The position numbers and the translations under genes were made by a program. The notes beneath the pieces are model-generated. The model was not told the DNA's origin. It made no database searches and saw only the letters and a list, made by a program, of their open reading frames with translations. This document shows positions 1,948 to 16,178 of a stretch of 64,000 nucleotides of DNA, piece after piece. Source of the stretch: Acidobacteriaceae bacterium (GTDB lineage Bacteria; Acidobacteriota; Terriglobia; Terriglobales; Acidobacteriaceae); contig PLCS01000014.1 in NCBI GenBank assembly GCA_003134855.1, positions 338-64,337 on the forward strand. Reading direction: 5' to 3'. Within the stretch, counting starts at the first letter, position 1. Each line of letters begins with the position of its first letter.

Positions 1948-3081
1948 TCACTTGCCTTCTAGGAGGGAGACTAGACCTTCAATTCTTCGAAAAACCTCAT
2001 CGAAGGTCAGAATACGGACGCCGACAAGTCTTTCTCTAAATCGTTCGAAGGAGCGTCTCATAGAATCGTCCACGAGTTCTTTCAATGCATTGCCAAGAAT
2101 CACTACGCAGTATGGTCTTGCCGCCGTGAGACGATCATCTGCTTGCTTTAGCGTGTGAAACTCCGCAGACAAGGACTCACTGTACTCAAGCACCTGAGAA
2201 ATTGCACCGCCCAAATCGATTGATGGTGGGAATGCACCATCACGGTATTTTGCACCCAGGATGTGAGATTGTGGCGTCTTAATTTCTACGAGAACGGCGG
2301 CCCCTGACGATTCTGTCCTGAACAAGAAGTCAACGATATTGCCTCCGGTGTTGGTCAAGTCCTTGCCACCAACGTACGCCTTTCCTTTGATAAGAACGAT
2401 GGGATAAGCGAACAATTGGGAGAGTACATAGGAATGACGAGCGAACAGGTTCTGCCAAAACTCCTCATCCTTGTTTTCCGTGTTGGCAGACCAACTCTTG
2501 AGTACAGAACGCAAGTTCGCGAGTCCAACCAGAGAATTTAATTCAGGCAGTTCCCCACCTTCATTTATCAATTCTTGCGCCTCAGTCTGTCTCGAAAGCC
2601 ACTGCAAGACTACACGCAAGGCCTGTACCCCGCCACTGCCGTGTGCAGACAAGAAACCCAACAAATCAGGCTCAGCGTCGGGAAGCAATTCTGAAAGAGA
2701 TCGATCCACCTTGAGCAGTTCTATTCTCCCCTTAGGTACGCCTTCTTGGCGATGAAAGCGATAAAGCGGAACGATCTCTCGAAGCAACTTGTACAACTCG
2801 CCTGCTGCCAACGAAAGCTGATAGCCCTCACCTTTCTTGAGAGAAGAGAACGGAAGTTTATCGAAATCTATCCATCGATCATTCCTCCCTTTTCGCTGAT
2901 AGAGGAAGCGGCCCCGCACAGATGCAAGAGGGTTTGTTGGATTATCGACGATTTCAGGGCGGAACAGAAGCCTCACCTGATCCCCACCGTCTCTGACCGA
3001 GATGTCGGAACAGCTCGCAGAATGCCTTGAGGTCGACTCTATCTCCACCTTCTCCATTCTCTTTCCGCACTCCTTTGCCAT
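1948..3081 (-). CDS. sduA: Shedu anti-phage nuclease (DUF4263, SduA-like)
   Basis: A 377-residue protein whose C-terminal half (about 200-377) matches the Shedu/DUF4263 nuclease. After EEFWQNLF (206-213) come D251 in NIVDFLF, the VEIK pair E266/K268 and the helix ISQVLEY around Q296. Together these form a PD-(D/E)xK active site. Shedu is a single-gene defence system in which the nuclease acts on DNA during phage infection. The N-terminal 200 residues are a variable region expected to sense the trigger. The start may be the first ATG (3081) or the ATG at 3057, which follows GGAAAGAGA. The gene is visibly less GC-rich than the flanking housekeeping genes, which fits horizontal transfer. It is divergent from the gene at 3239. 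Confidence 0.85.
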   Translation of the reverse strand: MAKECGKRMEKVEIESTSRHSASCSDISVRDGGDQVRLLFRPEIVDNPTNPLASVRGRFLYQRKGRNDRWIDFDKLPFSSLKKGEGYQLSLAAGELYKLLREIVPLYRFHRQEGVPKGRIELLKVDRSLSELLPDAEPDLLGFLSAHGSGGVQALRVVLQWLSRQTEAQELINEGGELPELNSLVGLANLRSVLKSWSANTENKDEEFWQNLFARHSYVLSQLFAYPIVLIKGKAYVGGKDLTNTGGNIVDFLFRTESSGAAVLVEIKTPQSHILGAKYRDGAFPPSIDLGGAISQVLEYSESLSAEFHTLKQADDRLTAARPYCVVILGNALKELVDDSMRRSFERFRERLVGVRILTFDEVFRRIEGLVSLLEGK

Positions 3082-3238: not shown

Positions 3239-4240
3239 ATGCCGCTGCCTGATATCGAATTGACGATCACGCCCCCTGCTCACTTGTATCAGGACGCCAG
3301 AAGATTCTTAAGATTCCTGCGAGTAGCCGCCCAAAAGCACTCCGTCAGAATTGCCGTCGAGGTTGACCGGTCCGGAACCTTCAAGTTGTCAATCCCTGCC
3401 AGAGATTGCGTAGGCTTGGACGCATTTCTGCAGGAGATTACCTTCCAGCATGGTCTGTATTACTATCTGTGCGGTGTTTCGAACAGAAGAGATGTAGCAC
3501 GGCTGATTGTAAAGCCGATCACCGAAAAGCTAATGCAATCCCAGTACGACGTTGCATATCCGGTTCAGATCAAGAAGCATCTTTTGAAAGGGACGCCAGA
3601 CTGGGCGGGAGGAGCATTCCTTGATGGAACAGCGCAGAAGTATGAGATTCTCTTTCAAAAGCTGAAGTTAAAGCTAGTGACGGGATATGAATTTGCCCGA
3701 GACCTGGATGATTTGCTTACAGAATTCATGCTTCTCCAACTCGGGCATCCAAAAGGTCTTCAAAGTCCAAAGTTCAATATTCTGGTCGCGAAGTGCGACC
3801 AGCAGGACGTGTTGCGAACCAAAGAGGTCCGGAAACTCTTTAATCAAGTCCATTCACTAAGGACAAAGGGACTCCATCGCTTGGAACGCGAGATCCCTGA
3901 TTCAGAGATCTCCGAAATTGCCCAAAACGTCTACGAATTCTTTGAATGGTTCGATGACTATTGGAGGGCTCAGGATGAAAAGACAACCATGCTTTCTGGT
4001 AAGAGATATAGAAGGATACGGTATGGTAAAGAGTCAATATCAACGGATGCACCGGAAGACTTCAAGGCACTTTGGGCAGAAGTGATAACGCGCCCCTGTC
4101 ATGATTGCGGGGTCATTAGGGGCGAGTTCCACCTGGATGGATGTGACATGGAGCGCTGCCCTCGATGCGGAGGTCAGTATTTCTGCTGCGACTGCAGGAT
4201 TGAGCAAGACAAATTCGAGTCCGCCGATCAGTCCCCGTAA
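3239..4240 (+). CDS. Unknown protein with possible HEPN motif and Cys-rich metal-binding tail
   Basis: A 333-residue soluble protein that I do not recognise as a named family. The middle is helical. At residues 208-213 it has R-T-K-G-L-H within FNQVHSLRTKGLHRLE, which fits the R-x4-6-H pattern of HEPN ribonucleases and is followed by long helices. The C-terminus (287-319) is a dense cysteine cluster: C287, C290, H298, C302, C307, C310, C316, C317 and C319, including ERCPRCGGQ, probably binding zinc. The gene is divergent from the Shedu nuclease across 157 bases and shares its lower GC, so the two may have arrived together. The ribosome site at the ATG is weak. A nuclease or defence role is inference only. 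Confidence 0.6.
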   Translation: MPLPDIELTITPPAHLYQDARRFLRFLRVAAQKHSVRIAVEVDRSGTFKLSIPARDCVGLDAFLQEITFQHGLYYYLCGVSNRRDVARLIVKPITEKLMQSQYDVAYPVQIKKHLLKGTPDWAGGAFLDGTAQKYEILFQKLKLKLVTGYEFARDLDDLLTEFMLLQLGHPKGLQSPKFNILVAKCDQQDVLRTKEVRKLFNQVHSLRTKGLHRLEREIPDSEISEIAQNVYEFFEWFDDYWRAQDEKTTMLSGKRYRRIRYGKESISTDAPEDFKALWAEVITRPCHDCGVIRGEFHLDGCDMERCPRCGGQYFCCDCRIEQDKFESADQSP

Positions 4241-4922: not shown

Positions 4923-5870
4923 TTGGCAAGCTATCTTGTGACCGGAGTGGCGGGGTTTATCGGCCGCTCGATTGCCGCGGCCTTGCTGGCGCGGGGTGAA
5001 ACCGTACGCGGCATCGACAGCTTTATCACCGGAAAGCGCTCCAACCTGGAGGGCCTGGAAGCGATGGAGTTCATGGAGGGCGACCTGGCCGATCCGGCAG
5101 CCTGCGCGAAGGCCTGCGCGGGAGTCGAGATCGTCTTCCACGAGGCGGCGCTGGTTTCGGTGCCGCGCTCGGTGGACGATCCTGTGAGCAGCAACCGGAA
5201 TTGCGTGGACGCTACGTTGAATTTGCTGATGGCCGCCCGCGCCGCCGGGACACGGCGGGTGATTTACGCGGCCTCGTCGGCGGCTTACGGGGACACGCCG
5301 ACACTGCCCAAGCACGAGGGAATGCTGCCCCAACCCATCTCGCCGTATGCCGTGGCCAAGCTGGCCGGCGAGCATTACATGGGCGCCTTCACCCGTGTTT
5401 ACGGGCTGGAGACGGTGGTGCTGCGCTACTTCAACGTCTTCGGACCATTTCAGGATCCCACCTCGCACTACTCCGGCGTGCTGGCCATCTTTTGCCGCCG
5501 GATGCTGGCCGGAGAGCCGATTACCATCTACGGCGACGGCGAACAGAGCCGCGATTTTACCTACATCGACAATGTGGTTCACGGCAATCTGCTGGTGGCC
5601 GCTGCTCCGGCGGAAAAGGTCTCAGGCCGGATGATGAACCTGGCCACGGGAAGCAGCAGTACGCTGAATGAGACCGTCGAAATTCTGCGGGATCTGACCG
5701 GCTACCGCGGGCAACCGGCCTACGAGCCAGCGCGCGCCGGCGACATCCGCGACTCGCTGGCCGATATTCGCCTGGCCGAAGAACTGCTCGGCTACGCGCC
5801 CATTGTGGATTTCCGCGAAGGCCTGCTGCGCACCATCGAGTGGTACCGGAGCGGCGGCGGAGTGGAGTAA
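4923..5870 (+). CDS. NAD-dependent sugar-nucleotide epimerase (extended SDR)
   Basis: A 315-residue extended short-chain dehydrogenase that interconverts nucleotide sugars. The NAD-binding TGVAGFIG motif is at residues 7-14, and the catalytic Ser is in AASSAAYGD (S118/S119) with Tyr142 and Lys146 in SPYAVAKLAGE. RYFNVFGP (168-175) and GDGEQSRDFTYIDNV (204-218) are typical of UDP-hexose 4-epimerases of the GalE/WbpP type. The exact sugar cannot be read from sequence; UDP-GlcNAc/GalNAc 4-epimerase is a reasonable guess. The start is TTG at 4923, seven bases after AGGGGAGA. It is the first gene of the polysaccharide locus. Confidence 0.85.
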   Translation: MASYLVTGVAGFIGRSIAAALLARGETVRGIDSFITGKRSNLEGLEAMEFMEGDLADPAACAKACAGVEIVFHEAALVSVPRSVDDPVSSNRNCVDATLNLLMAARAAGTRRVIYAASSAAYGDTPTLPKHEGMLPQPISPYAVAKLAGEHYMGAFTRVYGLETVVLRYFNVFGPFQDPTSHYSGVLAIFCRRMLAGEPITIYGDGEQSRDFTYIDNVVHGNLLVAAAPAEKVSGRMMNLATGSSSTLNETVEILRDLTGYRGQPAYEPARAGDIRDSLADIRLAEELLGYAPIVDFREGLLRTIEWYRSGGGVE

Positions 5871-6040: not shown

Positions 6041-8563
6041 GTGCCGGAATCAAATAACGTTCCGTTCGAATCGCCCCGCGAGCCCGATCCGTGGCCGGAT
6101 GCGCGGCCCAGCGCTGGTGGGCGCAATTCACGATCCATCCGTGAGCTAGGCGAAGTGCTGGCCCGCCGCCGTCGTTTGGTTGGCTCGGTGGTGGGGGGAT
6201 TGCTGCTGGCGTGCCTGCTCTATTGCCTCATCGCCCCCAATCAATACGAAGCCAGCGCCCGGGTGGAGTTGCGCGCCACGCCCATCTCCGCGCTCAGCCT
6301 GGGAGCGCCGGAGACGTTTGGGGCGGTCTCGATTCTCTCCGCGCCGTTGCAGCAGGAGACTCTGGTCAACGTCTTTCGCAGCGACCAACTGGCCTGGAAG
6401 GTGATTACCGGCCTCAAACTCTATCAGGCGCCGGGGTTCATGGGCGGATTTGCCGGGAAGTTTCCGGATTTTCACGCTGAAGCTCCCGCCGCTGACGCCC
6501 AGGCCTGGCTGCTGGAGAGATTTCAGAAGCGGCTACGCGTGGAAACCCTGCCGCGCACGTTGCTGATTCAGATTCGCTTCCGATCCCGGGACGCGGCGCT
6601 GTCGGCCAGCGTGGTGAACGCCTTGATTGCCGCCTACGGCCAGCAGGACACCGAGTCGCGGGTGCAGGCTACGTTGCAGGCCTCGGAGTGGCTTCAGGGC
6701 CAGCTCAAGGAGTTGAAGGCGCGCGGCGAGCGGGATCAGTTGCGGCTGGCGGCCTTCCAGCGGGAGCACGGCCTGCTGAATACGCCGGAGATAATGGCCA
6801 ACGGCCAGCCGGGCGAGACCCAGCACACCTCGGCCTTGCTGGAGCTGGATGAACTGGGCCGTGAGCTGGTGGCGGCCTCCACGGACCGGATTCTGCGCGA
6901 GGCGCAGTACCGGGCGGCCTCGCAAGGCGATCCAGAGTTGGTCATCGCCTCCGATCCGCGCTTGCAAGCCGAAAGCGGCAACTTCGCCACCGCGCTGCTC
7001 CAGCAGATTCACGCCCAGCACAGTCAGCTCGAACAGGAACAGGCTCAGCTCAACATCGAGCACGGCCCCAACTTCCCACGCGTCGTCGAGGTTCGCCGCC
7101 AGTTGCAAGATCTGGACCGGCAGAAGCAGGCCGAGGATGCCAAGCTGGTGGAGCGCTTCCGTGGCGCATGGCAGATGACCGTCGACCGCGAGCAACTGGT
7201 CCGCAAAAATCTTGAAGACGCGACCGGCGAAGGCATGAAGGCCAATGAAGCAGCTGCTCAATACGCGGCGATGCGCGAGGAGGCCAACGCTGATCATGAT
7301 CTCTACGTCCGGATGCTGGGGAAGGCCGAGGAAGCGGGTCTGGCCGCCGGCATCAAGGGTTCGAATATCTCCGTGGTGGATTATGCCCGCCAGCCAGTGA
7401 AGCCGGTGGCGCCCGATCTGCCGCTCTACATGGCCATTACGCTCTTTGCCGGCCTCTGGCTGGCGGTGGGAGGCGCGCTCTTGATGGAGTCGATTCGTCC
7501 CTCTCGTACATTTGTAGCACTGCTGGCGGTTGTGCTGGCCTGCGCAGTGGCCCTCGGCCAGGCGCCTACGCCCAGCACCTCCGGGCTGCCCACGGGAGTG
7601 GTCCGCATTCCCGCTCCGCAGCAGAACCCCAATCTGCCCAATCCCAAGGAATCGCCTGCAACCTGGGACAGCCCTGTCCAGGCTGGGCTGCCGCCGCTGG
7701 TCCGCGCGCAGTCGGCGTTGCCGATGCCCGCTCCCATCGCTCCCGGCGATTTCCTCGATGTCAGCGAGGTTCACACCCCGGAGTTCCATTCCGCGGTGCG
7801 GGTCTCGCCGTCGGGCACGGTGACGCTGCCGATGATTCATGAAGTACAGGTGGGCGGGATGGACGAGCAGGCCGCCGCGCACGCCATTGAAGCCGCGCTG
7901 GTGGCCCAGGGGATGCTGCTGCATCCGCAGGTCTCGGTTCTAGTGACCTCCTATGCCGGCCAGGACGTGAGCGTGCTGGGCGAGGTGGTGCGCCCCGGCG
8001 TCTATCCCTACACGCTGCACCATCGGCTGCTGGACCTGATCTCGGCCGCTGCCGGACTGGCGCCGAACGCCGGCCGCCTGGTGAACATCTTCCACCGCGA
8101 CGACGCCAGAACGCCGCATCCAGTAGTGCTGGACCCCAGCGGCACCGATACAGAAGCGGACCACAACCCGGAGCTGGCCCCCGGCGACACCGTTCAGGTC
8201 AGCCGCGCGGGGCTGGTTTACGTGGTTGGCGATGTGCAGCGCCCTGGCGGTTTTGCCGTCGATCCGGCGCAAGGATTGACGGTCGTTCAGGCGCTCTCGC
8301 TGGCCTGGGGACCGACGCAGAACGCCGCGATGAGCAAGGCCATTCTTATCCGCGAGCAGAAGGGCGGACGCACCCTGACCAGCCTCAACCTGAAACGCAT
8401 GCTGCACGGACAGGAGCCGGACCAGCCCGTCCGCGACCGCGACATTCTCTTTGTGCCCGACTCGGCGGCCAAAAACCTGTGGAATCGGACGGTGGAATCG
8501 GCCATTCAATCGGCAATAGGCGTTACGATTTATGCCGGGCTGGTTTATTCGCAGAGGTTTTGA
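6041..8563 (+). CDS. Fused polysaccharide chain-length regulator and export protein (Wzz-Wza)
   Basis: An 840-residue fusion. Residues 1-482 form a Wzz/GNVR-type co-polymerase: TM1 at about 47-65, a long periplasmic coiled coil and TM2 at about 460-482. A second hydrophobic stretch follows at 490-506, resembling a signal peptide (MESIRPSRTFVALLAVV, then LAC and ALGQA). Residues 565-780 are a Wza-type polysaccharide export domain (APGDFLDV) with two SLBB-like repeats (QDVSVLGEVVRPGVYPY and AGLVYVVGDVQRPGGF). In classical systems these are separate proteins, an inner-membrane length regulator and an outer-membrane exporter. No Wzc kinase domain is seen. The start is GTG at 6041 with GGGAGAGAGG upstream. 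The reading frame is continuous, but an internal start at 7484 could also make the exporter separately. Confidence 0.85.
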   Translation: MPESNNVPFESPREPDPWPDARPSAGGRNSRSIRELGEVLARRRRLVGSVVGGLLLACLLYCLIAPNQYEASARVELRATPISALSLGAPETFGAVSILSAPLQQETLVNVFRSDQLAWKVITGLKLYQAPGFMGGFAGKFPDFHAEAPAADAQAWLLERFQKRLRVETLPRTLLIQIRFRSRDAALSASVVNALIAAYGQQDTESRVQATLQASEWLQGQLKELKARGERDQLRLAAFQREHGLLNTPEIMANGQPGETQHTSALLELDELGRELVAASTDRILREAQYRAASQGDPELVIASDPRLQAESGNFATALLQQIHAQHSQLEQEQAQLNIEHGPNFPRVVEVRRQLQDLDRQKQAEDAKLVERFRGAWQMTVDREQLVRKNLEDATGEGMKANEAAAQYAAMREEANADHDLYVRMLGKAEEAGLAAGIKGSNISVVDYARQPVKPVAPDLPLYMAITLFAGLWLAVGGALLMESIRPSRTFVALLAVVLACAVALGQAPTPSTSGLPTGVVRIPAPQQNPNLPNPKESPATWDSPVQAGLPPLVRAQSALPMPAPIAPGDFLDVSEVHTPEFHSAVRVSPSGTVTLPMIHEVQVGGMDEQAAAHAIEAALVAQGMLLHPQVSVLVTSYAGQDVSVLGEVVRPGVYPYTLHHRLLDLISAAAGLAPNAGRLVNIFHRDDARTPHPVVLDPSGTDTEADHNPELAPGDTVQVSRAGLVYVVGDVQRPGGFAVDPAQGLTVVQALSLAWGPTQNAAMSKAILIREQKGGRTLTSLNLKRMLHGQEPDQPVRDRDILFVPDSAAKNLWNRTVESAIQSAIGVTIYAGLVYSQRF
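7468..7486 (+). promoter_or_regulatory. Possible internal ribosome site and ATG for a separate Wza-like product
   Basis: GGGAGG at 7468-7473 lies ten bases before an in-frame ATG at 7484 (codon 482). Translation from here would give a 359-residue protein beginning with a credible signal peptide (basic MESIRPSR, a hydrophobic core, then LAC or ALGQA). This would restore a free exporter alongside the fusion. Internal initiation is a prediction. Confidence 0.35.
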
Positions 8564-8643: not shown

Positions 8644-8761
8644 GCAACAAGAGAAAAACCGGACGGGGCATTAGCCCCCGATGAAATCTCTTCATTACGA
8701 TATAACTTGCACAGAGATTTCTTCGCACTTTCTTGCAGAATGCAGAACGAGGAGCTATCAA

Positions 8762-9544
8762 TTGCCTAACTCGACCTTATATAAGCAATTCGGCCGCATC
8801 ACATTCCTGCTCTCGTGCGTGCTGGTCGCGGGATTAAGCGGAGCGGCTCTGCGGCTGTTGCAAGCTCATGCGGGGAGCCGTCGCGCGTGGATGGCCGTGG
8901 GATACTGCCTGATTCTCCTGGGCGTCTTCTGGATCAGAAGCCTGGAGCGCCGCCTGGCGGATGCCGGATTGCCGCGCTGGAGCTTCTGGCCCTACTTCCT
9001 GATTGTCTTCACCGGGTGCCTTGCGGCGCATGGATTCAAGGTCGCGACGAGCCCGGAGACGCTGGCGCTCTTTCTTCTTCTTCAGCTACCGGCGGTTCTT
9101 TTTGAAAGCAAATCAGCACCCTCCGCGTTATCGCCCGAAGGAGTCAAGCTTCCAGTGAAGCCGGCGCGTCCGGTTGCGCCGCTCTCCGCCCTGGAGTTTG
9201 CGATCTTCCTGATGTTGATCGCCGGACTATGGCACGTTCTGCATCTGCTGCGAGGCGACGTTGCCGGCATGGCTCACTCGCGGGCCTGGAGGTATGCCCT
9301 GGATGCCGGCTCCTGGCTGCTTTGCGTGCCGTGGTTTTTCAGCGTGCGCGGGAGACTCAAGGCTCTTGGCCGGATGCGTTGGACTGCGATTCTCTGTACG
9401 ATTGTGCTTATTTCTTGCTTGCTGCTGTTTTACTTCAGAGTGATCAGCTTCCCGCAGGCGATTGTTTTGTTTATTGTTCTCCAAATTCCGATGATTATTC
9501 TCAGGCGTGAATCGATTTCCGCGAGATTTTTCGCCGAAGACTAG
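8762..9544 (+). CDS. Polytopic membrane protein of the polysaccharide locus
   Basis: A 260-residue integral membrane protein with about seven hydrophobic helices and a short cytoplasmic-looking Pro/Ala segment in the middle (around SPEGVKLPVKPARPVAP). I chose the TTG at 8762 because GAGGAG lies exactly seven bases upstream; the longer frame from 8681 starts inside an inverted repeat and has no ribosome site. No family motif is recognised. The gene overlaps the region just before the O-antigen ligase and is co-oriented with it, so a role in polysaccharide assembly or modification is likely but unproven. Confidence 0.6.
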   Translation: MPNSTLYKQFGRITFLLSCVLVAGLSGAALRLLQAHAGSRRAWMAVGYCLILLGVFWIRSLERRLADAGLPRWSFWPYFLIVFTGCLAAHGFKVATSPETLALFLLLQLPAVLFESKSAPSALSPEGVKLPVKPARPVAPLSALEFAIFLMLIAGLWHVLHLLRGDVAGMAHSRAWRYALDAGSWLLCVPWFFSVRGRLKALGRMRWTAILCTIVLISCLLLFYFRVISFPQAIVLFIVLQIPMIILRRESISARFFAED

Positions 9545-9566
9545 GATTCTTGAAAGGTTTCGTCTG

Positions 9567-10775
9567 ATGCGCCGCATTGCGTGGCTTCTGTTGCTGCTCT
9601 TCGCCTTCGCGATTCCATGGGAGTACTCCCTGGAACTGGGCGCGCCGCTGGGCAACATTGCCCGCTTCATTGGCGTTTTGCTGCTTCTGGTGGCGATTCC
9701 GGCGGTTTTTCAAGCCGGCCGAATGCGTTCTCCGGGCCCAATGCAATGGCTGGTGCTGGCTTTTTTTCTCTGGTTCTGCTGCACCTGCTTCTGGACCATC
9801 GATCCGCTTGTGACCGTGGCAAAGCTGCGGGGCTATCTCCAGGAAATACTTATCGTATGGCTGGTCTGGGAGTTTGCCGAGAGCGCCGGCGATCTGCGCG
9901 CGCTGTTGCGGGCCACCGTGGCCGGCTCCTGGGTGCTGGCCCTGCTGACGCTGGCGAACTTCGCCACGGCAGAGGTTTTGGCCAACCAGATTCGATTTGC
10001 CGCCGAGGGACAGGATCCGAACGACGTGGCCCGTTTTCTCAACCTGAGCTTCCCGCTGGCGGCGCTGCTGTTGAGCAGCGAGCCTCGCTGGCCCTGGCGT
10101 CTGCTGGCGGCCGGCTACCTGCCGCTGGGACTGGTCGCCGTCTTGCTCACGGCCTCCCGCGGAGGGTTCCTGGCGGCTCTTGTGGCGCTGGCGGGCAGCG
10201 GCATCCTGCTGGTTTATGGACGACCGCGCAGAGTGCTGGCCGGGGTGCTGACGTTGCCGCTTCTGGCCGCAGGTCTGTGGTTTACCGTTCCTCGCGGAAC
10301 CTATGAGCGCCTGGCCACGATCTCCGAACAGCTTCAGAGCGGCGACCTCAACCAGCGGTGGAATATCTGGCGGGCCGGCTGGCATGCCTTTGCGCGCGCG
10401 CCGTTCTTAGGCACGGGGGCGGGCACGTTTGTCAGCGCGGCCGGCGTGGCGCCCATCGATACAGCGCACAACACGGCTCTGACCATCGCGGTCACCGGCG
10501 GCCTGTGCGCGCTGTTTCTGGCCTCGACTATCGTCGCCATTGCCGTTTGGTCGATCACGCAAATCCGCGGCCCGCTCAAGTGGGCGCTGGCCACGGCGCT
10601 TGTGGTCTGGCTCATCACTTCGCTGGTAGCCACCGTGGAGGAGAGCCGCACTACCTGGCTGCTGCTGGCGATGATCGCGCTAGCTGGAAGGCTGGCGGCC
10701 GAGCAGCCTGAGGAGTTGGCTGCTTGCTTCCCGGCCGCCGTGCCGGGTTTCGGTAGCAGGTTAGTTCCGGGTTAA
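9567..10775 (+). CDS. O-antigen ligase/polymerase family protein (Wzy/WaaL)
   Basis: A 402-residue protein with about eleven transmembrane helices. The TASRGGFLAALVALAG region and the following large loop (with NQRWNIWRAGWHAFARAPFLGTGAGTF) carry the Wzy_C signature. Such proteins either polymerise undecaprenyl-linked repeat units or transfer finished chains, acting at the periplasmic face of the inner membrane. The ATG at 9567 is preferred over the upstream GTG (9507) because GAAAGG precedes it and the extra 20 residues would overlap the preceding gene. Polymerase and ligase cannot be told apart by sequence. The Wzz domain encoded nearby favours a polymerase in a Wzy-dependent pathway. Confidence 0.8.
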   Translation: MRRIAWLLLLLFAFAIPWEYSLELGAPLGNIARFIGVLLLLVAIPAVFQAGRMRSPGPMQWLVLAFFLWFCCTCFWTIDPLVTVAKLRGYLQEILIVWLVWEFAESAGDLRALLRATVAGSWVLALLTLANFATAEVLANQIRFAAEGQDPNDVARFLNLSFPLAALLLSSEPRWPWRLLAAGYLPLGLVAVLLTASRGGFLAALVALAGSGILLVYGRPRRVLAGVLTLPLLAAGLWFTVPRGTYERLATISEQLQSGDLNQRWNIWRAGWHAFARAPFLGTGAGTFVSAAGVAPIDTAHNTALTIAVTGGLCALFLASTIVAIAVWSITQIRGPLKWALATALVVWLITSLVATVEESRTTWLLLAMIALAGRLAAEQPEELAACFPAAVPGFGSRLVPG

Positions 10776-10830: not shown

Positions 10831-11130
10831 TCAGGCGGCGCGGACGCGTTCGACGGCGAGGCGCAGGCCCAGGGCTTTGAGGATGGCGGAGAGGCTGTGC
10901 AGTTCTGGGTTGCCCTGTTCGGAAAGTGTGCGGTAGAGCTGGGTCGGGTTCAGATTGGCCTTCTCCGCCAAGCTCTGCACCCCGCCAAAGGCTTTCGCCA
11001 TCTGGCGCAGAGCGATCAGCAGTTCGCCCTGTTCTCCGTCTTCAAGAATGCTATTCAGTAGCTCCAGCGCGTAGGAGGGGTCTTGCTTGAAAAGCTCCGC
11101 CATGGCTTCGTCGTGAGTTCTGTCTCTCAT
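10831..11130 (-). CDS. higA: HigA-type antitoxin (addiction module antidote)
   Basis: A 99-residue helix-turn-helix protein of the putative addiction-module antidote family. The HTH lies around VQSLAEKANLNPTQLYRTLSEQGNPELHSLSAILKALGL (residues 52-90). It neutralises the RelE-like toxin encoded just upstream and is expected to repress their shared promoter. The ATG at 11130 overlaps the toxin stop codon as ATGA, which couples translation. A ten-codon longer frame exists but would overlap the toxin further. The pair sits inside the polysaccharide locus, convergent with the ligase gene. Confidence 0.85.
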   Translation of the reverse strand: MRDRTHDEAMAELFKQDPSYALELLNSILEDGEQGELLIALRQMAKAFGGVQSLAEKANLNPTQLYRTLSEQGNPELHSLSAILKALGLRLAVERVRAA

Positions 11131-11453
11131 TGCTCCGCTCTCCTTTGCCAATCCTGCCATAATTCACAGGCCCGGCCGATCTCCGTATCCTGGCTGCGCT
11201 TGTCTCCACCACAGAGCAGCAAAACTACTTGCGCTCCGGCGAGGGCGTAATAGACTCTGTATCCGGGACCAATGTCGATGCGCAACTCCCAGACCCCATC
11301 ACGGCAGAACCTGTGGTCGCCGAAGTTGCCCAACTCCATTCGGTTGATTCTTCGGTCAACGGCAATCTTCGCCTTGGTGTCGCGAAGTTGACGACGCCAA
11401 TCCATGAAGAGGTCTTTATCGCTCCGCGTCAGGTAATGGCGAATCTCGTACAT
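11127..11453 (-). CDS. higB: HigB/RelE-family toxin (addiction module killer protein)
   Basis: A 108-residue basic protein of the RelE/ParE superfamily, subgroup of phage-derived Gp49-like or addiction-module killer proteins. The RINRMELGNFGDHRF, VWELRIDIGPGYRVYYA and VVLLLCGGDKRSQDTEI segments are characteristic. Members cleave mRNA on the ribosome. Toxin-before-antitoxin order is the HigBA arrangement. The length is typical and no residue seems missing, so the module looks intact. The predicted promoter leaves almost no leader before the ATG (see the operator entry). Confidence 0.85.
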   Translation of the reverse strand: MYEIRHYLTRSDKDLFMDWRRQLRDTKAKIAVDRRINRMELGNFGDHRFCRDGVWELRIDIGPGYRVYYALAGAQVVLLLCGGDKRSQDTEIGRACELWQDWQRRAEQ

Positions 11454-11595: not shown

Positions 11596-12957
11596 ATGTT
11601 TTTGATCCCCCAACTCGCGCGGTACTTTCAGGGCGGCAGCGTCAACCGGCGCATCTTGCGCGCGGCGGCGGCGGTGGCGGCGGCGGGGGTTCTGGTCAAG
11701 GTTGTCGCTGCGTTCAAGGAGTTTGCCGTCGCCGGAGTTTATGGGCGCTCGGACGCGATGGATGCGTTTCTGGCGGCTTTTCTGATTCCCAACCTGCTCA
11801 TCAACCTGATCTCGGAGTCGATGAACCAGGCGTTGGTGCCGACGCTGATCCGGGTCAGGGAACGCGAGGGCCACGAGCGGGCACAGCAATTACTTTCGAG
11901 TTCGATGCTATGGGTCTGTGTGCTGCTGACCGCGGCAACGGCGGTGATGGCTCTGACCGCGCGCGGCTTCTTTCCGCTGATCGCCTCGCACTTTCCGCCG
12001 GAGAAGCTGGCGCTCTCGATTCGGCTTTTTTACGCGCTGCTGCCGGTGGTGCTGATCACCGGAATCGCCACCAACTGCACCGCCGTGCTGAATACCTTTG
12101 ACCACTTTGCGCTGCCCGCGCTGGCACCGGTGGCGACCCCGGCGGCGATCATTCTGGGAGCGCTGGTGTTGGGCGGGCGCTACGGAATCTGGGCGATGGT
12201 CTATGCGACGCTGATCGGCGCGCTGATTCACGTCGGCGCGGTGGCTTGGATGATGGACGCGCGCGGCTATCGCTTTCGGCTCTGGTGGCACGGAGCGACC
12301 GAGGCTACGCGCGAAGTGGCGCGCCAGTATGGGCCGATGCTGCTGAGCGGCGTGGTGGCCTCCGGCGGCCTGCTGGTGGATCAATCGATGGCCGCGATGC
12401 TGCCTGCGGGGAGCGTCTCCGCGCTGGCCTACGCCAACCGCTTTGTCAGCGTGGTGATTACGCTGCTGGCCGGGGCGGTCTCCTCGGCTGTGGTGCCGCA
12501 TTTTTCGCGCATGATCGCCCATGAAGATTGGGCCGGCTGCCGCCACACGCTGCGAACCTGGGTGCGGCTTACGGCGCTGGTGTCAACACCCATAGCTTTG
12601 GCGCTGATCGCCGGCTCGCACTGGCTGATTCGCACCGCATTCCAGCATGGCGTCTTCGGGCCAAACGACACGGCACTGGTGACGCCGGTGCTGGCGATGT
12701 ACGCGATTCAGATTCCTTTCTTTGTCTCCAGCCGGGTCTTCTACCGTTTTCTGGTTGCCTTGCGCAGAAGCGATTTGATTTTCTATTGCGGCGCGCTGAA
12801 TCTGGGGCTGGATGTGGTGCTGAACCTGATTCTCATGCGCTGGATGGGCGTGGCGGGCATCGCGCTGGCTACGTCGCTTTGGACCGTGAGCACCTTCCTT
12901 TTCCTTTGGTACTGGAGCTGGAAGTTGCTGCCGAAGGGGGAGATTGAGAGGGTTTAA
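11596..12957 (+). CDS. MurJ/MviN-family lipid-linked precursor flippase
   Basis: A 453-residue protein with about fourteen transmembrane helices and the MurJ signature near the N-terminus (GVLVKVVAAFKEFAVAGVYGRSDAMDAFLAAFLIPNL, residues 32-68, and ESMNQALVPTL). The family flips undecaprenyl-pyrophosphate-linked intermediates across the inner membrane. Because it stands in a polysaccharide locus and away from the dcw cluster, it may move an exopolysaccharide repeat unit (a Wzx role) instead of lipid II. The ATG at 11596 has only a weak ribosome site, but no better start exists. The toxin-antitoxin pair lies divergently upstream. Confidence 0.8.
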   Translation: MFLIPQLARYFQGGSVNRRILRAAAAVAAAGVLVKVVAAFKEFAVAGVYGRSDAMDAFLAAFLIPNLLINLISESMNQALVPTLIRVREREGHERAQQLLSSSMLWVCVLLTAATAVMALTARGFFPLIASHFPPEKLALSIRLFYALLPVVLITGIATNCTAVLNTFDHFALPALAPVATPAAIILGALVLGGRYGIWAMVYATLIGALIHVGAVAWMMDARGYRFRLWWHGATEATREVARQYGPMLLSGVVASGGLLVDQSMAAMLPAGSVSALAYANRFVSVVITLLAGAVSSAVVPHFSRMIAHEDWAGCRHTLRTWVRLTALVSTPIALALIAGSHWLIRTAFQHGVFGPNDTALVTPVLAMYAIQIPFFVSSRVFYRFLVALRRSDLIFYCGALNLGLDVVLNLILMRWMGVAGIALATSLWTVSTFLFLWYWSWKLLPKGEIERV

Positions 12958-13376: not shown

Positions 13377-14501
13377 TCAGCATTCCCTCGGCGGCTCAAG
13401 CCGCAGGCTTTGGTCGATCAGGCTCTCATAGGCCTGGATCGCGCGGTCGAGGCGGAAGGCTTCTACAAAGGGGTGGGCAAAGCGCTCACCCGGCCGCAAC
13501 GCATGAAGAGCGTCGAGCAGGGAAGCGGCAAGAGCTTCGGCGGAGATTTCCGGAGCGAGCCACACACCGGGCTGACCTTGCAGCAGCTCAACCAGACCTT
13601 CGCAAGCCGGCAAAGCCACAATGGGCAGTCCCGCGGCAGCCGCCTCCAGCAGGGCATTGGGCAGGCCTTCATGCCGGGAGGGCAGCACAAAGAGCGTTGC
13701 CTCCGGGAAGAGGGACCAGGGGCGCGCGAGGTAGCCGGAAAAGCGCACCGCCTCGTCGAGTCCCAGCGCATGGCGCTCGGCCTTCAGCATCGCCTCTTCC
13801 GGCCCAGCGCCGGCAATCAGCAGGCTGACGCCGGGAAAGTCGTTCCGGACGGAGGCCAAGGCGCGCAGCAGCAGATCGAAGCCTTTTTCCGGCGAGAGCC
13901 TTCCCATGGCCAACAAATGCGGACAGGGGGCGGTTTGCGGGGCAGGATTCAGGCCGATGGAATGGCGAATCTCCTCCACATCCACTGGGTTGGGCAGCAC
14001 CGCGAGCCGGCATTCGGGAAGACCAAGTTCCTGCGCGAGATCCACGGCCATCGCCCGCGTCTGGCAGATCACCCGGTCGGCGCGGCGGTAGAGCAGCCGG
14101 TAGAGCGGACGGGTGGTCCAAGGCAGCCCACCGAAGTTCAGGGCGGAGGAGACCGTCCCGTTCTGGCGCACCAGGACGCACGTACCGTGGGGAAAGAAGG
14201 GGCGCAGCAGCAGCACGAGAAAGTTCAGTTGGAAGATTCCGGAGAGGATCAGGCTGGGTTTCAGGCGGCGAACCAGCCGCAGCAAGCGGAGGGCCCCGAC
14301 GCGTACCCTGGGAGCGCCCAGAGCGTGGATTTGAATCCCAGAGGGCAGTCCTTCGCCGCCGGCCTCCGCCTGCGTGATCAGCCCCAGATGCAGCTCGTAC
14401 TTCTCCGCGGAGAGGCCCCGCGCCAGAAGTGCCATCACGCGCTCCGCGCCGCCGCCGCCGAGATGGGGAATCAACAAGAGAACCCTTGGCCGGTGATTCA
14501 T
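13377..14501 (-). CDS. Glycosyltransferase family 4
   Basis: A 374-residue GT-B fold glycosyltransferase. The N-terminal domain opens with RVLLLIPHLGGGGAERVM, the usual acceptor-binding loop. The C-terminal domain has GRLSPEKGFDLLLRA and the E-x7-E motif in SRHEGLPNALLEAAAAGLPIV, which binds the nucleotide-sugar donor. It transfers a sugar to a lipid-linked or polysaccharide acceptor on the cytoplasmic side of the membrane; neither donor nor acceptor can be named. It is transcribed opposite to the rest of the locus and is convergent with the flippase across the tandem repeats. A long open frame on the other strand is only its shadow. Confidence 0.85.
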   Translation of the reverse strand: MNHRPRVLLLIPHLGGGGAERVMALLARGLSAEKYELHLGLITQAEAGGEGLPSGIQIHALGAPRVRVGALRLLRLVRRLKPSLILSGIFQLNFLVLLLRPFFPHGTCVLVRQNGTVSSALNFGGLPWTTRPLYRLLYRRADRVICQTRAMAVDLAQELGLPECRLAVLPNPVDVEEIRHSIGLNPAPQTAPCPHLLAMGRLSPEKGFDLLLRALASVRNDFPGVSLLIAGAGPEEAMLKAERHALGLDEAVRFSGYLARPWSLFPEATLFVLPSRHEGLPNALLEAAAAGLPIVALPACEGLVELLQGQPGVWLAPEISAEALAASLLDALHALRPGERFAHPFVEAFRLDRAIQAYESLIDQSLRLEPPREC

Positions 14502-14867: not shown

Positions 14868-16178
14868 GTGTTCAAATGCAGCATACAGGTAGCGGTTACT
14901 GATTTTTTGCCCACATCATTTAGTGTGCGCAATCGCTTCTCATCCTCAGCCGCTCATCCGGCTCAGACGTCCCCATCCTCGCGAAGCCCCCACATCGTCG
15001 TCGGCATCACCAGTCCGCAAACCTGCCTAGTGCTGGGCGGCCGCTTGCGCACACTGCGCGAGGCGGGCTTTCGCGTCACGCTGGTTTCAGGCCCCGGCGA
15101 GCTGCTCACCCGCACCGCCGCGCAGGAAGGGGTCGAGTCGATTGCGATTCCCATGCGGCGGGAAATGGCGCCGCTGGCGGATCTTGTCTCCCTGGCGCGC
15201 CTGTGGTGGCTGCTCTACCGGCTCAAGCCGGAGATGACGGAGTTCAGCACGCCCAAGGCCGGGCTGCTGGGCTCCATTGCCGCACTGCTCTGCGGAGTGC
15301 CGACGCGGGTCTATTTTCTGCGCGGGCTCAAGCTGGAAACCTGCACGGGAGTCAAGCGCCGCATTCTTCTGGCCACGGAGAGGCTGGCCTCGGCCTGTTC
15401 TCATGCCGTGCTGTGCAATAGCGACAGCTTGCGCAGCGAGGCGCTCACTTTGGGCCTGGCGCCGGAGAGCAAGCTGCGCCTGCTGGGCAGCGGCAGCAGC
15501 AACGGCGTCGATGTGGAGCGCTTCCAACCGGGGCCGTGCAACCTGCGCGCCCGGCTGGGTCTTCCGCTCCATGCGCATGTTATAGGTTTTGTGGGGCGAT
15601 TGACTCGCGACAAGGGGCTGCCGGAGCTGGTGGAGGCATTCGACGCGATCCTAGCCGCGAAGCCGGAGTCGCATCTGCTGTTGGTAGGCTGGTTTGACGC
15701 CGCTGAAGATGCGCTCGGAGATGATCTGCGCTCGCGCATCGCAAGCCACCCGCGGATTCACATGACCGGGTTTGTCGCCGACACGTCACCCTATTACCGT
15801 GTGATGGACGTGATGGTCCTGCCCACCTGGAGGGAAGGCTTTCCCAATGTTGTACTGGAGGCCGCGGCCACCGGGATTCCCGTGGTGACAACCTTGTGCA
15901 CCGGCTCCCGGGATGCCGTGGTGCCGGAGGTGACCGGGCTGCTGATCCCCCCAGGCTATCCGTTCGCCATCAGCGAGGCCGTGCTGCAACTGCTGCACAG
16001 CCCGAAACGCCGCTGCCGTATGGGCCTAGCAGCCCGCGCATGGGTTCTCGACCACTATGTCAATGGGCGCGTCCTGGGTCTGACGGTGGGCTACTACCAG
16101 AACCTGCTGGAGCGGAATCTGACGAGGAATTCCAAGGTCGGGCTGGTTTCCGCAGATTCCGCCCTCAATCCGATCTGA
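14868..16178 (+). CDS. Glycosyltransferase family 4 (EPS biosynthesis)
   Basis: A 436-residue GT-B glycosyltransferase. The catalytic core begins near residue 45 (HIVVGITSPQTCLVLGGRL) after a Ser/Pro-rich N-terminal extension. GRLTRDKGLPELVEAF and the E-x7-E motif in PTWREGFPNVVLEAAATGIPVV mark the donor-binding domain. The N-terminal region around RTLREAGFRVTLVSGPGE resembles EpsD/PglA-like transferases acting on undecaprenyl-linked sugars. The start GTG at 14868 has GGGAGAGG directly upstream. The gene ends 12 bases from the stop of the convergent nuoN, with no obvious terminator between them. Confidence 0.85.
   Translation: MFKCSIQVAVTDFLPTSFSVRNRFSSSAAHPAQTSPSSRSPHIVVGITSPQTCLVLGGRLRTLREAGFRVTLVSGPGELLTRTAAQEGVESIAIPMRREMAPLADLVSLARLWWLLYRLKPEMTEFSTPKAGLLGSIAALLCGVPTRVYFLRGLKLETCTGVKRRILLATERLASACSHAVLCNSDSLRSEALTLGLAPESKLRLLGSGSSNGVDVERFQPGPCNLRARLGLPLHAHVIGFVGRLTRDKGLPELVEAFDAILAAKPESHLLLVGWFDAAEDALGDDLRSRIASHPRIHMTGFVADTSPYYRVMDVMVLPTWREGFPNVVLEAAATGIPVVTTLCTGSRDAVVPEVTGLLIPPGYPFAISEAVLQLLHSPKRRCRMGLAARAWVLDHYVNGRVLGLTVGYYQNLLERNLTRNSKVGLVSADSALNPI

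Follow-up and report, generated by a model that had tools for sequence, protein, structure and literature searches.

The analysed window is a stretch of 64,000 nucleotides from the Acidobacteriaceae bacterium contig PLCS01000014.1 (assembly GCA_003134855.1, positions 338–64,337 of the forward strand), and it contains at 6041–8563 on the plus strand a gene in which a polysaccharide co-polymerase (PCP) is fused to an outer-membrane polysaccharide exporter (OPX). The gene was a single open frame of 840 codons with a GTG start. The N-terminal half was composed of a kinase-less co-polymerase of the Wzz/Wzc type and the C-terminal half of a Wza-type exporter, which were linked by a signal-peptide-like segment. 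The start column contained TTG, GTG or ATG in 54 of 60 homologues, with TTG the commonest (35/60; GTG 17, ATG 2), and its conservation supported the annotated GTG as the probable start.

All parts of the fusion are given on the plus strand. The first transmembrane helix, TM1 (residues 44–64, 6170–6232), was helical in the AlphaFold model, and residues 43–64 had a mean pairwise identity of 0.57. Residues Cys58, Tyr61, and Cys62 of TM1 were invariant in a 29-row alignment; in a 30-row alignment Tyr61 was invariant and both cysteines were kept in at least 90% of the rows. The periplasmic domain of the PCP (residues 65–459, 6233–7417) contained long helices at 185–243 and 346–436, with the GNVR region beginning at residue 411, and was best matched to Wzc chains by Foldseek. 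TM2 (residues 460–484, 7418–7492), also a helix in the model, closed the PCP part, with an identity of 0.61 over residues 459–481. A third hydrophobic helix of 14 residues (residues 490–503, 7508–7549; identity 0.31), the putative signal-peptide core, was followed by a signal peptidase I-like site, A504-L505-G506/Q507 (7550–7561). The Pro-rich linker with the predicted N-terminus of the mature OPX (residues 507–565, 7559–7735) began with QAPTPSTSGLPTG. The OPX domains (7736–8467) consisted of Poly_export (residues 566–635) and SLBB repeats, and their mean pairwise identity across the fused frames was 0.71. A conserved helical tail (residues 810–839, 8468–8557; identity 0.73) at the C-terminus is a candidate outer-membrane helix; its model helices, 814–827 and 830–839, had pLDDT values under 50.

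Both halves were recognized by domain and structure searches. The Pfam Wzz domain (residues 33–123) scored 24.2 bits, just under the cut-off of 25.5, and GNVR (residues 411–481) scored 42.4 bits, above its cut-off of 27.7. SLBB_2 matched two stretches, the better being residues 641–720. The NCBIfam matches of the fusion protein were partial, EpsF-like and EpsE-like, and all below cut-off (EpsE, 130 bits). When the PDB was searched with a homologue profile, the class-3 OPX WzaB (9n9a) was found with an E-value of 9e-23, Wza (2j58) with 4.8e-14, and Wzc (9xgv_A) with 6.3e-12. The AlphaFold model, built from 30 sequences, had a mean pLDDT of 69 and a pTM of 0.37. It contained the two TM helices and the short helix 490–503, fell below a pLDDT of 50 over residues 500–562, and then continued into the OPX folds; its global arrangement should not be trusted. 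With this model, Foldseek ranked Wzc chains highest, followed by Wza chains; the best hit had an E-value of 1.2e-12 and a whole-query TM-score of just 0.24.

The N-terminal half had the two TM helices and the Wzz/GNVR periplasmic domain of the PCP-2 proteins, with Wzz below its cut-off, and the C-terminal half had the Poly_export and SLBB domains of the OPX proteins. The tyrosine kinase carried in the same chain by PCP-2a proteins had no counterpart in the Pfam scan, and the OPX followed directly after TM2. A nearby kinase gene, as in PCP-2b systems, was absent among the eight neighbours scanned with Pfam. One stand-alone kinase-like frame (C17, 301 residues) scored above its family cut-off elsewhere in the genome, with no evidence linking it to the cluster. 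As for the Wza_C helix of class 1 OPX proteins, the tail was conserved and of low model confidence, and the best sequence match among solved structures was a class-3 OPX.

The PCP–OPX fusion was confirmed to be real and fixed in its clade. Matches at E ≤ 1e-60 were present in 65 of 80 genomes of the genus and were sorted by hand into junction classes. With the genome of the window counted, 60 of the 65 read through the junction in one frame and 54 had an uninterrupted frame over both halves, which bears out the preliminary description of the gene as one uninterrupted frame joining a Wzz-like to a Wza-like part. In six genomes (G009, G066, G070, G071, G074, and G091) the matched stretch crossed the junction in one frame, and NN gaps, a contig end or an indel interrupted the gene at other places. 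The other matches were an NN gap at the junction (G063), OPX fragments at contig edges (G067 and G099), a 749-codon PCP frame (G069), and a PCP fragment joined to other sequence (G082). In the last (locus L039), PCP residues 1–257 ran into other sequence resembling a glycosyltransferase, and the stretch lacked any OPX match; this copy is either rearranged or misassembled. No match at this threshold was found in 15 of the 80 genomes, including 6 of the 42 of good quality, so the gene can be absent.

Five of 74 collected loci were not in one frame, three because of contig edges, one because of an NN gap and one because of an indel, and no stop codon had been regained between the halves in the gap-free copies. 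The fused set used below retained 69 of the 74 rows, without L110, L112, L115, L117, and L119. L036, from the same genome as L109, was counted in the 69-row junction counts and left out of the 68-row counts. L013, whose frame was broken at NN, was omitted from alignment A1, and the distant partial matches L120 and L121 lay outside the set. G113, first listed with a 1095-codon frame, was dropped because the fetched stretch held a 762-codon PCP frame.

Two candidates per genome were scored in surveys of the family and the phylum. Among 398 genomes from 79 genera of the family, the fused frame was found in three genera (g1, g19, and g60); the genes found elsewhere in the family were separate, with the exception of G375 described below. 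The search for the same domain pair in other Acidobacteriota, as proposed in the preliminary description, gave no fusion of this type beyond the family in 396 genomes of the phylum, among matches at E ≤ 1e-30 only, where distant fusions could be missed. Among plasmids, 152 records matched, none with a single place covering more than 80% of the query.

Some copies were indeed broken, as an assembly or sequencing artefact would predict. However, the fused frame recurred across many assemblies, including that of Terracidiphilus gabretensis strain S55 (L109), which was renamed Occallatibacter gabretensis in 2026 according to the available text of PMC12935467. When six interrupted copies were inspected, five of the breaks were two-letter NN gaps and that of G091 was a one-base shift in the linker at about codon 537, away from the hydrophobic segment. 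An artefact was therefore rejected, and its probability is practically negligible. Separate homologues together with a frameshift near 7484, the pattern by which the preliminary description would have recognized an artefact, were not found within the clade.

The junction segment, R489-TFVALLAVVLACAVALG506 followed by Q507, was conserved in an unusual pattern across the 69 fused frames. The +1 residue (507) was Gln in 69/69. The −1 residue was Ala in 51, Gly in 16, Cys in 1, and Pro in 1, so that Ala or Gly occupied 67/69. The −3 residue was small or aliphatic in 69/69 (Ala 29, Leu 15, Gly 13, Ser 4, Ile 3, Thr 3, Met 1, and Val 1). The mean pairwise identity was 0.61 in TM2, 0.25 in the following loop, 0.31 in the hydrophobic core, 1.0 at Gln507, 0.79 over residues 508–521, and 0.33 over residues 522–562. 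The run of residues without charged or strongly polar side chains averaged 15.1 in the core, compared with 20.7 in TM2 and 17.6 in TM1 (the run length and identity of TM1 rest on 64 rows). The −3/−1 rule was satisfied at 25 of 818 alignment positions, and only position 507 also followed a stretch of mean hydropathy above 2; the next-best hydropathy among these positions was 1.93, at 478 inside TM2. In unfused OPX relatives, an [AGS]Q pair was located at the end of the core, or at most 22 residues from it, in 36 of 36 distinct proteins, by a loose search without a chance control.

Judged by the −3/−1 pattern, the conserved feature of the junction is a signal peptidase I-like site. Since the core varied and the cut site and the new N-terminus were held, the junction had the shape of a cleavable signal peptide, and the buried segment (residues 489–506, ahead of the conserved Q507), which the preliminary description had already recognized as signal-peptide-like, is most plausibly a cleavable signal peptide that the exporter has retained. 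Weighing against this assignment, the −3 residue was Leu, Ile or Met in 19/69, which is permitted but not ideal, and one homologue had Pro at −1.

The LAC motif within the segment had been put forward as a possible lipobox. This candidate was rejected, as the column of Cys501 contained Cys in just 8 of the 69 fused frames. A lipobox-like pattern was present in 8/68 homologues, that of the window included, at varying places, and did not define a lipoprotein-type OPX such as Wza. The OPX of the fusion does not appear to be a lipoprotein.

A possible internal start was located at the end of TM2. The motif GGGAGG (7468–7473) contained a Shine-Dalgarno (SD)-like GGAGG (7469–7473) within codons Gly477 and Gly478, and was followed after 10 bases by the ATG of codon 482 (7484–7486). 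The candidate starts were TTG (codon 481) and ATG (codon 482) at 7481–7486, and translation from the ATG at 7484 would give a product of 359 residues. These coordinates agreed with the preliminary description. The conservation of the internal ATG and its ribosome site, which it had proposed as a check, was found only in part. Met482 was present in just 16 of 69 fused frames, and a conserved Met482 as such was rejected. The start signal may sit at either codon, where 49/68 homologues had a start codon, and internal initiation was retained on the basis of the combined signal. GGAGG was combined with a start codon at either of the two positions in 32/68 homologues, compared with a mean of 5.5 and a maximum of 12 in 300 synonymous shuffles. 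A start codon at 481/482 was present in all 32 copies with GGAGG and in 17 of the 36 without it. In the tree, 28 of the 32 rows fell in the 52-row clade of the window.

Codon usage and anti-SD energy showed the same site. Gly477 was coded by GGA in 41/60, ranking first of 47 Gly columns (next 0.40, mean 0.18). Among representatives below 70% identity, whose four-fold sites were largely saturated, GGA at 477 was kept in 16/27, and the other Gly columns averaged 0.19 and did not exceed 0.39. Leu481 was coded by TTG in 17/38, ranking third of 105 Leu columns, the first of which was the true start column. Codons 481 and 482 had the lowest mean anti-SD energies of 826 codon positions; the energy at the internal site was −7.75 (the better of two windows), compared with −6.86 at the start of the fusion. 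In 41 unfused PCP frames, collected on the condition of more than 600 codons, GGAGG was present in the TM2 codons of 5, and GGA made up 42 of 162 TM2 Gly codons.

Several observations weakened the case for internal initiation. After correction for kinship, the association of SD and start codon was reduced to about 4 pairs to 0 of 7 (median p 0.125), which was not significant. Start codons alone were mildly enriched (49/68 against a shuffle mean of 38.7 and a maximum of 46), and as many homologues held start codons in 7 of 68 control windows, or in 11 of 68 for ATG. Codon 586 came close on start codon plus strong SD, with 0.40 against 0.46 at codon 481. The internal site was as structured as random in-gene sites (−18.7 and −18.0 kcal/mol, respectively), while the start of the fusion was at −13.9. 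Furthermore, GGAGG was missing in 36/68, and both GGAGG and the start codon were missing in 19/68. Judged from these patterns, the chances that internal initiation takes place in the lineage of the window are about even, and some subclades probably do without it.

The nearest unfused relatives were gene pairs of a PCP-kinase and an OPX. Both genes were present in 11 of 14 regions around unfused relatives and only the OPX gene in 3; opx was downstream of pcp in 10 of the 11 two-gene regions and upstream in L130. The PCP frames of these regions had 723–786 codons, and the four read by eye had a kinase-like end. In addition, a 763-residue PCP-kinase query was matched nearly to its end in most of the unfused matches listed. 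Because the fusion lacked the kinase, loss of the kinase domain on joining to the opx frame would be the simplest path of origin. A different fusion was found in G375 (L139, same family), where a PCP, a kinase domain (AAA_31), a signal-peptide-like segment, and an OPX were contained in one 1097-codon frame (8096–11386 of L139, plus strand). Among 62 genomes of its genus, this was the only one with such a fusion, which probably arose independently.

When the fusion was compared with Wzc of E. coli (PCP-2a), the two TM helices, the long helical periplasmic arms, and the GNVR end were shared, whereas the cytoplasmic tyrosine kinase was absent and its place after TM2 was taken by the signal peptide and the OPX. 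The Poly_export and SLBB domains were shared with E. coli Wza and with the GumB and EpsE relatives; in contrast to Wza, the OPX of the fusion was encoded within the PCP frame behind a buried signal peptide and had no conserved Cys for lipid attachment. Wza is acylated, as stated in the available text of PMC9601211; according to that of PMC9603273, a lipoprotein is predicted for about 78% of the OPX proteins of class 1 and for nearly half of those of class 3. The stand-alone pairs of the same family (L122–L127 and L129–L133) had homologous halves, opx downstream in 10/11, and an OPX signal peptide ending in [AGS]Q, but were encoded by separate genes with a longer PCP and a kinase-like end. The G375 fusion shared the single frame and the internal signal-peptide-like segment ahead of the OPX, and differed in having kept the kinase. 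Kinase-less PCP-2 proteins are known, namely EpsV of Myxococcus and HfsA of Caulobacter, which act with a separate pseudokinase; they resemble the fusion in lacking a kinase of their own, but the available text of PMC12004946 describes no OPX fused to them. No report of a natural PCP–OPX fusion was found in the literature searched, which included the available text of PMC9603273, PMC9601211, PMC12004946, PMC7112194, and PMC12881504. Each half of the fusion belongs to a known family.

These features suggest, with rather better than even confidence, that the fusion is an envelope polyprotein, which would be cut by signal peptidase I into a PCP and a mature OPX and topped up by internal initiation in about half of the homologues, that of the window included. 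The ribosome would make one chain, whose kinase-less co-polymerase part would be placed in the inner membrane by TM1 and TM2. Export would be re-opened by the third hydrophobic segment, the exporter's former signal peptide, and the rest of the chain would pass the Sec translocon. Signal peptidase I would then cut between G506 and Q507 of A504-L505-G506/Q507, and the freed OPX, predicted to have 334 residues, would move to the outer membrane. Each full-length translation would yield one PCP and one OPX, and hence at least one OPX per PCP, which agrees with the 8:8 ratio of Wza and Wzc. In about half of the homologues, including that of the window, further ribosomes probably initiate at the SD and start codon that close TM2, and these would supply additional OPX of identical mature form. 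Since cleavage and internal initiation would give an identical mature OPX, they are not mutually exclusive. The nearest precedent for such processing is the FbcH cytochrome b/c1 polyprotein of Bradyrhizobium, on which no paper was found; it is likewise one chain, with an inner-membrane part followed by an exported part and a cut at an internal signal sequence, although it belongs to a respiratory complex and the proteins are unrelated. Of the two readings in the preliminary description, a trans-envelope tether and internal initiation, neither fitted the conservation as well as a polyprotein cut at an internal signal peptide; internal initiation nevertheless gained support for about half of the homologues (32/68 with both signals), and 19/68 had neither signal.

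The segment could instead be an uncleaved anchor. The third segment would then stay in the inner membrane as TM3, the OPX would reach the outer membrane on the Pro-rich linker, and an octamer of single chains would bridge both membranes. This arrangement is consistent with the single frame, with the conserved C-terminal tail, and with a topology in which a presumably cytoplasmic N-terminus and three hydrophobic segments place the OPX in the periplasm. With about 60 residues, the flexible linker could span about 200 Å, estimated at 3.5 Å per residue, and Wza and Wzc form an octameric heterodimer about 360 Å long, according to the available text of PMC12881504. However, an anchor needs neither Gln at +1 nor Ala or Gly at −1, yet both positions were constrained while the core varied; moreover, the core was shorter than TM2 and ended in the pattern of the stand-alone OPX proteins. 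Such a tether is considered unlikely.

The OPX might also be made mainly from the start at codon 481/482 as a nested gene, in which case the full-length chain would be a by-product or be quickly trimmed and the fusion frame would have no role. The excess of GGAGG plus start codon over the shuffles and the anti-SD energy, similar in strength to that of the fusion start, favour this view, and the GGAGG in 5/41 unfused PCPs was counted on the same side. Against it, the homologues with neither signal still kept the fusion, no stop was regained between the halves in the gap-free copies, the site was not unstructured, and the kinship-corrected test was not significant; a nested gene seems quite unlikely. 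An arrangement with an at least partly uncleaved fusion, in which eight copies with three inner-membrane helices and a C-terminal outer-membrane helix would form the whole channel from polymerase to surface and internal initiation would add free OPX, is less probable than either of these. Finally, SD-like runs within genes have been linked to pausing, and the GGAGG might be an elongation pause that times the insertion of TM2 and the signal peptide. This would account for the SD signal only and would be compatible with cleavage. The position at the end of TM2 would suit a pause, and GGA was kept in several homologues in which codon 478 was not Gly and GGAGG was lost. The start codon at 481/482 in 32/32 copies with GGAGG, against 17/36 without (not corrected for kinship), argues for a start instead, and a pause site is regarded as improbable.

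PCP and OPX proteins are known to meet in the periplasm; they are usually synthesized separately, and each has to find its partner, and the kinase is thought to control PCP assembly. A clade with PCP and OPX fixed in one frame, no kinase, and the cut site kept is a natural experiment on stoichiometry and on the need for the kinase. In this clade of soil Acidobacteria, the inner-membrane part of the sugar-polymer machinery and a released export part are probably both products of a single gene, and the same product may arise from one frame in two ways. As a candidate for a bacterial polyprotein that signal peptidase processes, the fusion would also belong to a class that is to our knowledge rare. 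It is testable, since T. gabretensis strain S55 carries it.

The gene cluster around the fusion was conserved among 77 loci scanned for neighbours, many of whose contigs end before these genes and in which at least two genomes were held twice (L044/L053 and L113/L136). An NAD-dependent epimerase gene upstream (4923–5870, plus strand) was present in 59/77 loci, and a Wzy_C-domain polymerase/ligase gene downstream (9507–10775, plus strand) in 75/77. A MurJ/Wzx-type flippase gene (11596–12957, plus strand) was found in 59/77. Two group 1 glycosyltransferase genes, at 13377–14501 on the minus strand and 14868–16178 on the plus strand, had matches in 52/77 loci each; at least one of the former was a cross-match, and at least seven of the latter were low-identity cross-matches on the other strand.

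Other genes of the region were less widespread. A Shedu-type SduA defence gene (1948–3081, minus strand; Pfam SduA_N and SduA_C, PADLOC SduA E-value 2.5e-108) lay upstream of the cluster and, within the reach of their flanks, was unmatched in the 77 related loci. The adjacent gene (3239–4240, plus strand) encoded a protein of 333 residues without a Pfam or PADLOC match. A toxin-antitoxin-like pair, a Gp49 family protein and an HI1420-type antidote (10831–11453, minus strand), was located between the polymerase and flippase genes, with no match in the 77 loci as far as these reach. A hydrophobic protein without a Pfam match (8681–9544, plus strand), whose gene overlapped the polymerase gene, was present in 4/77 related loci.

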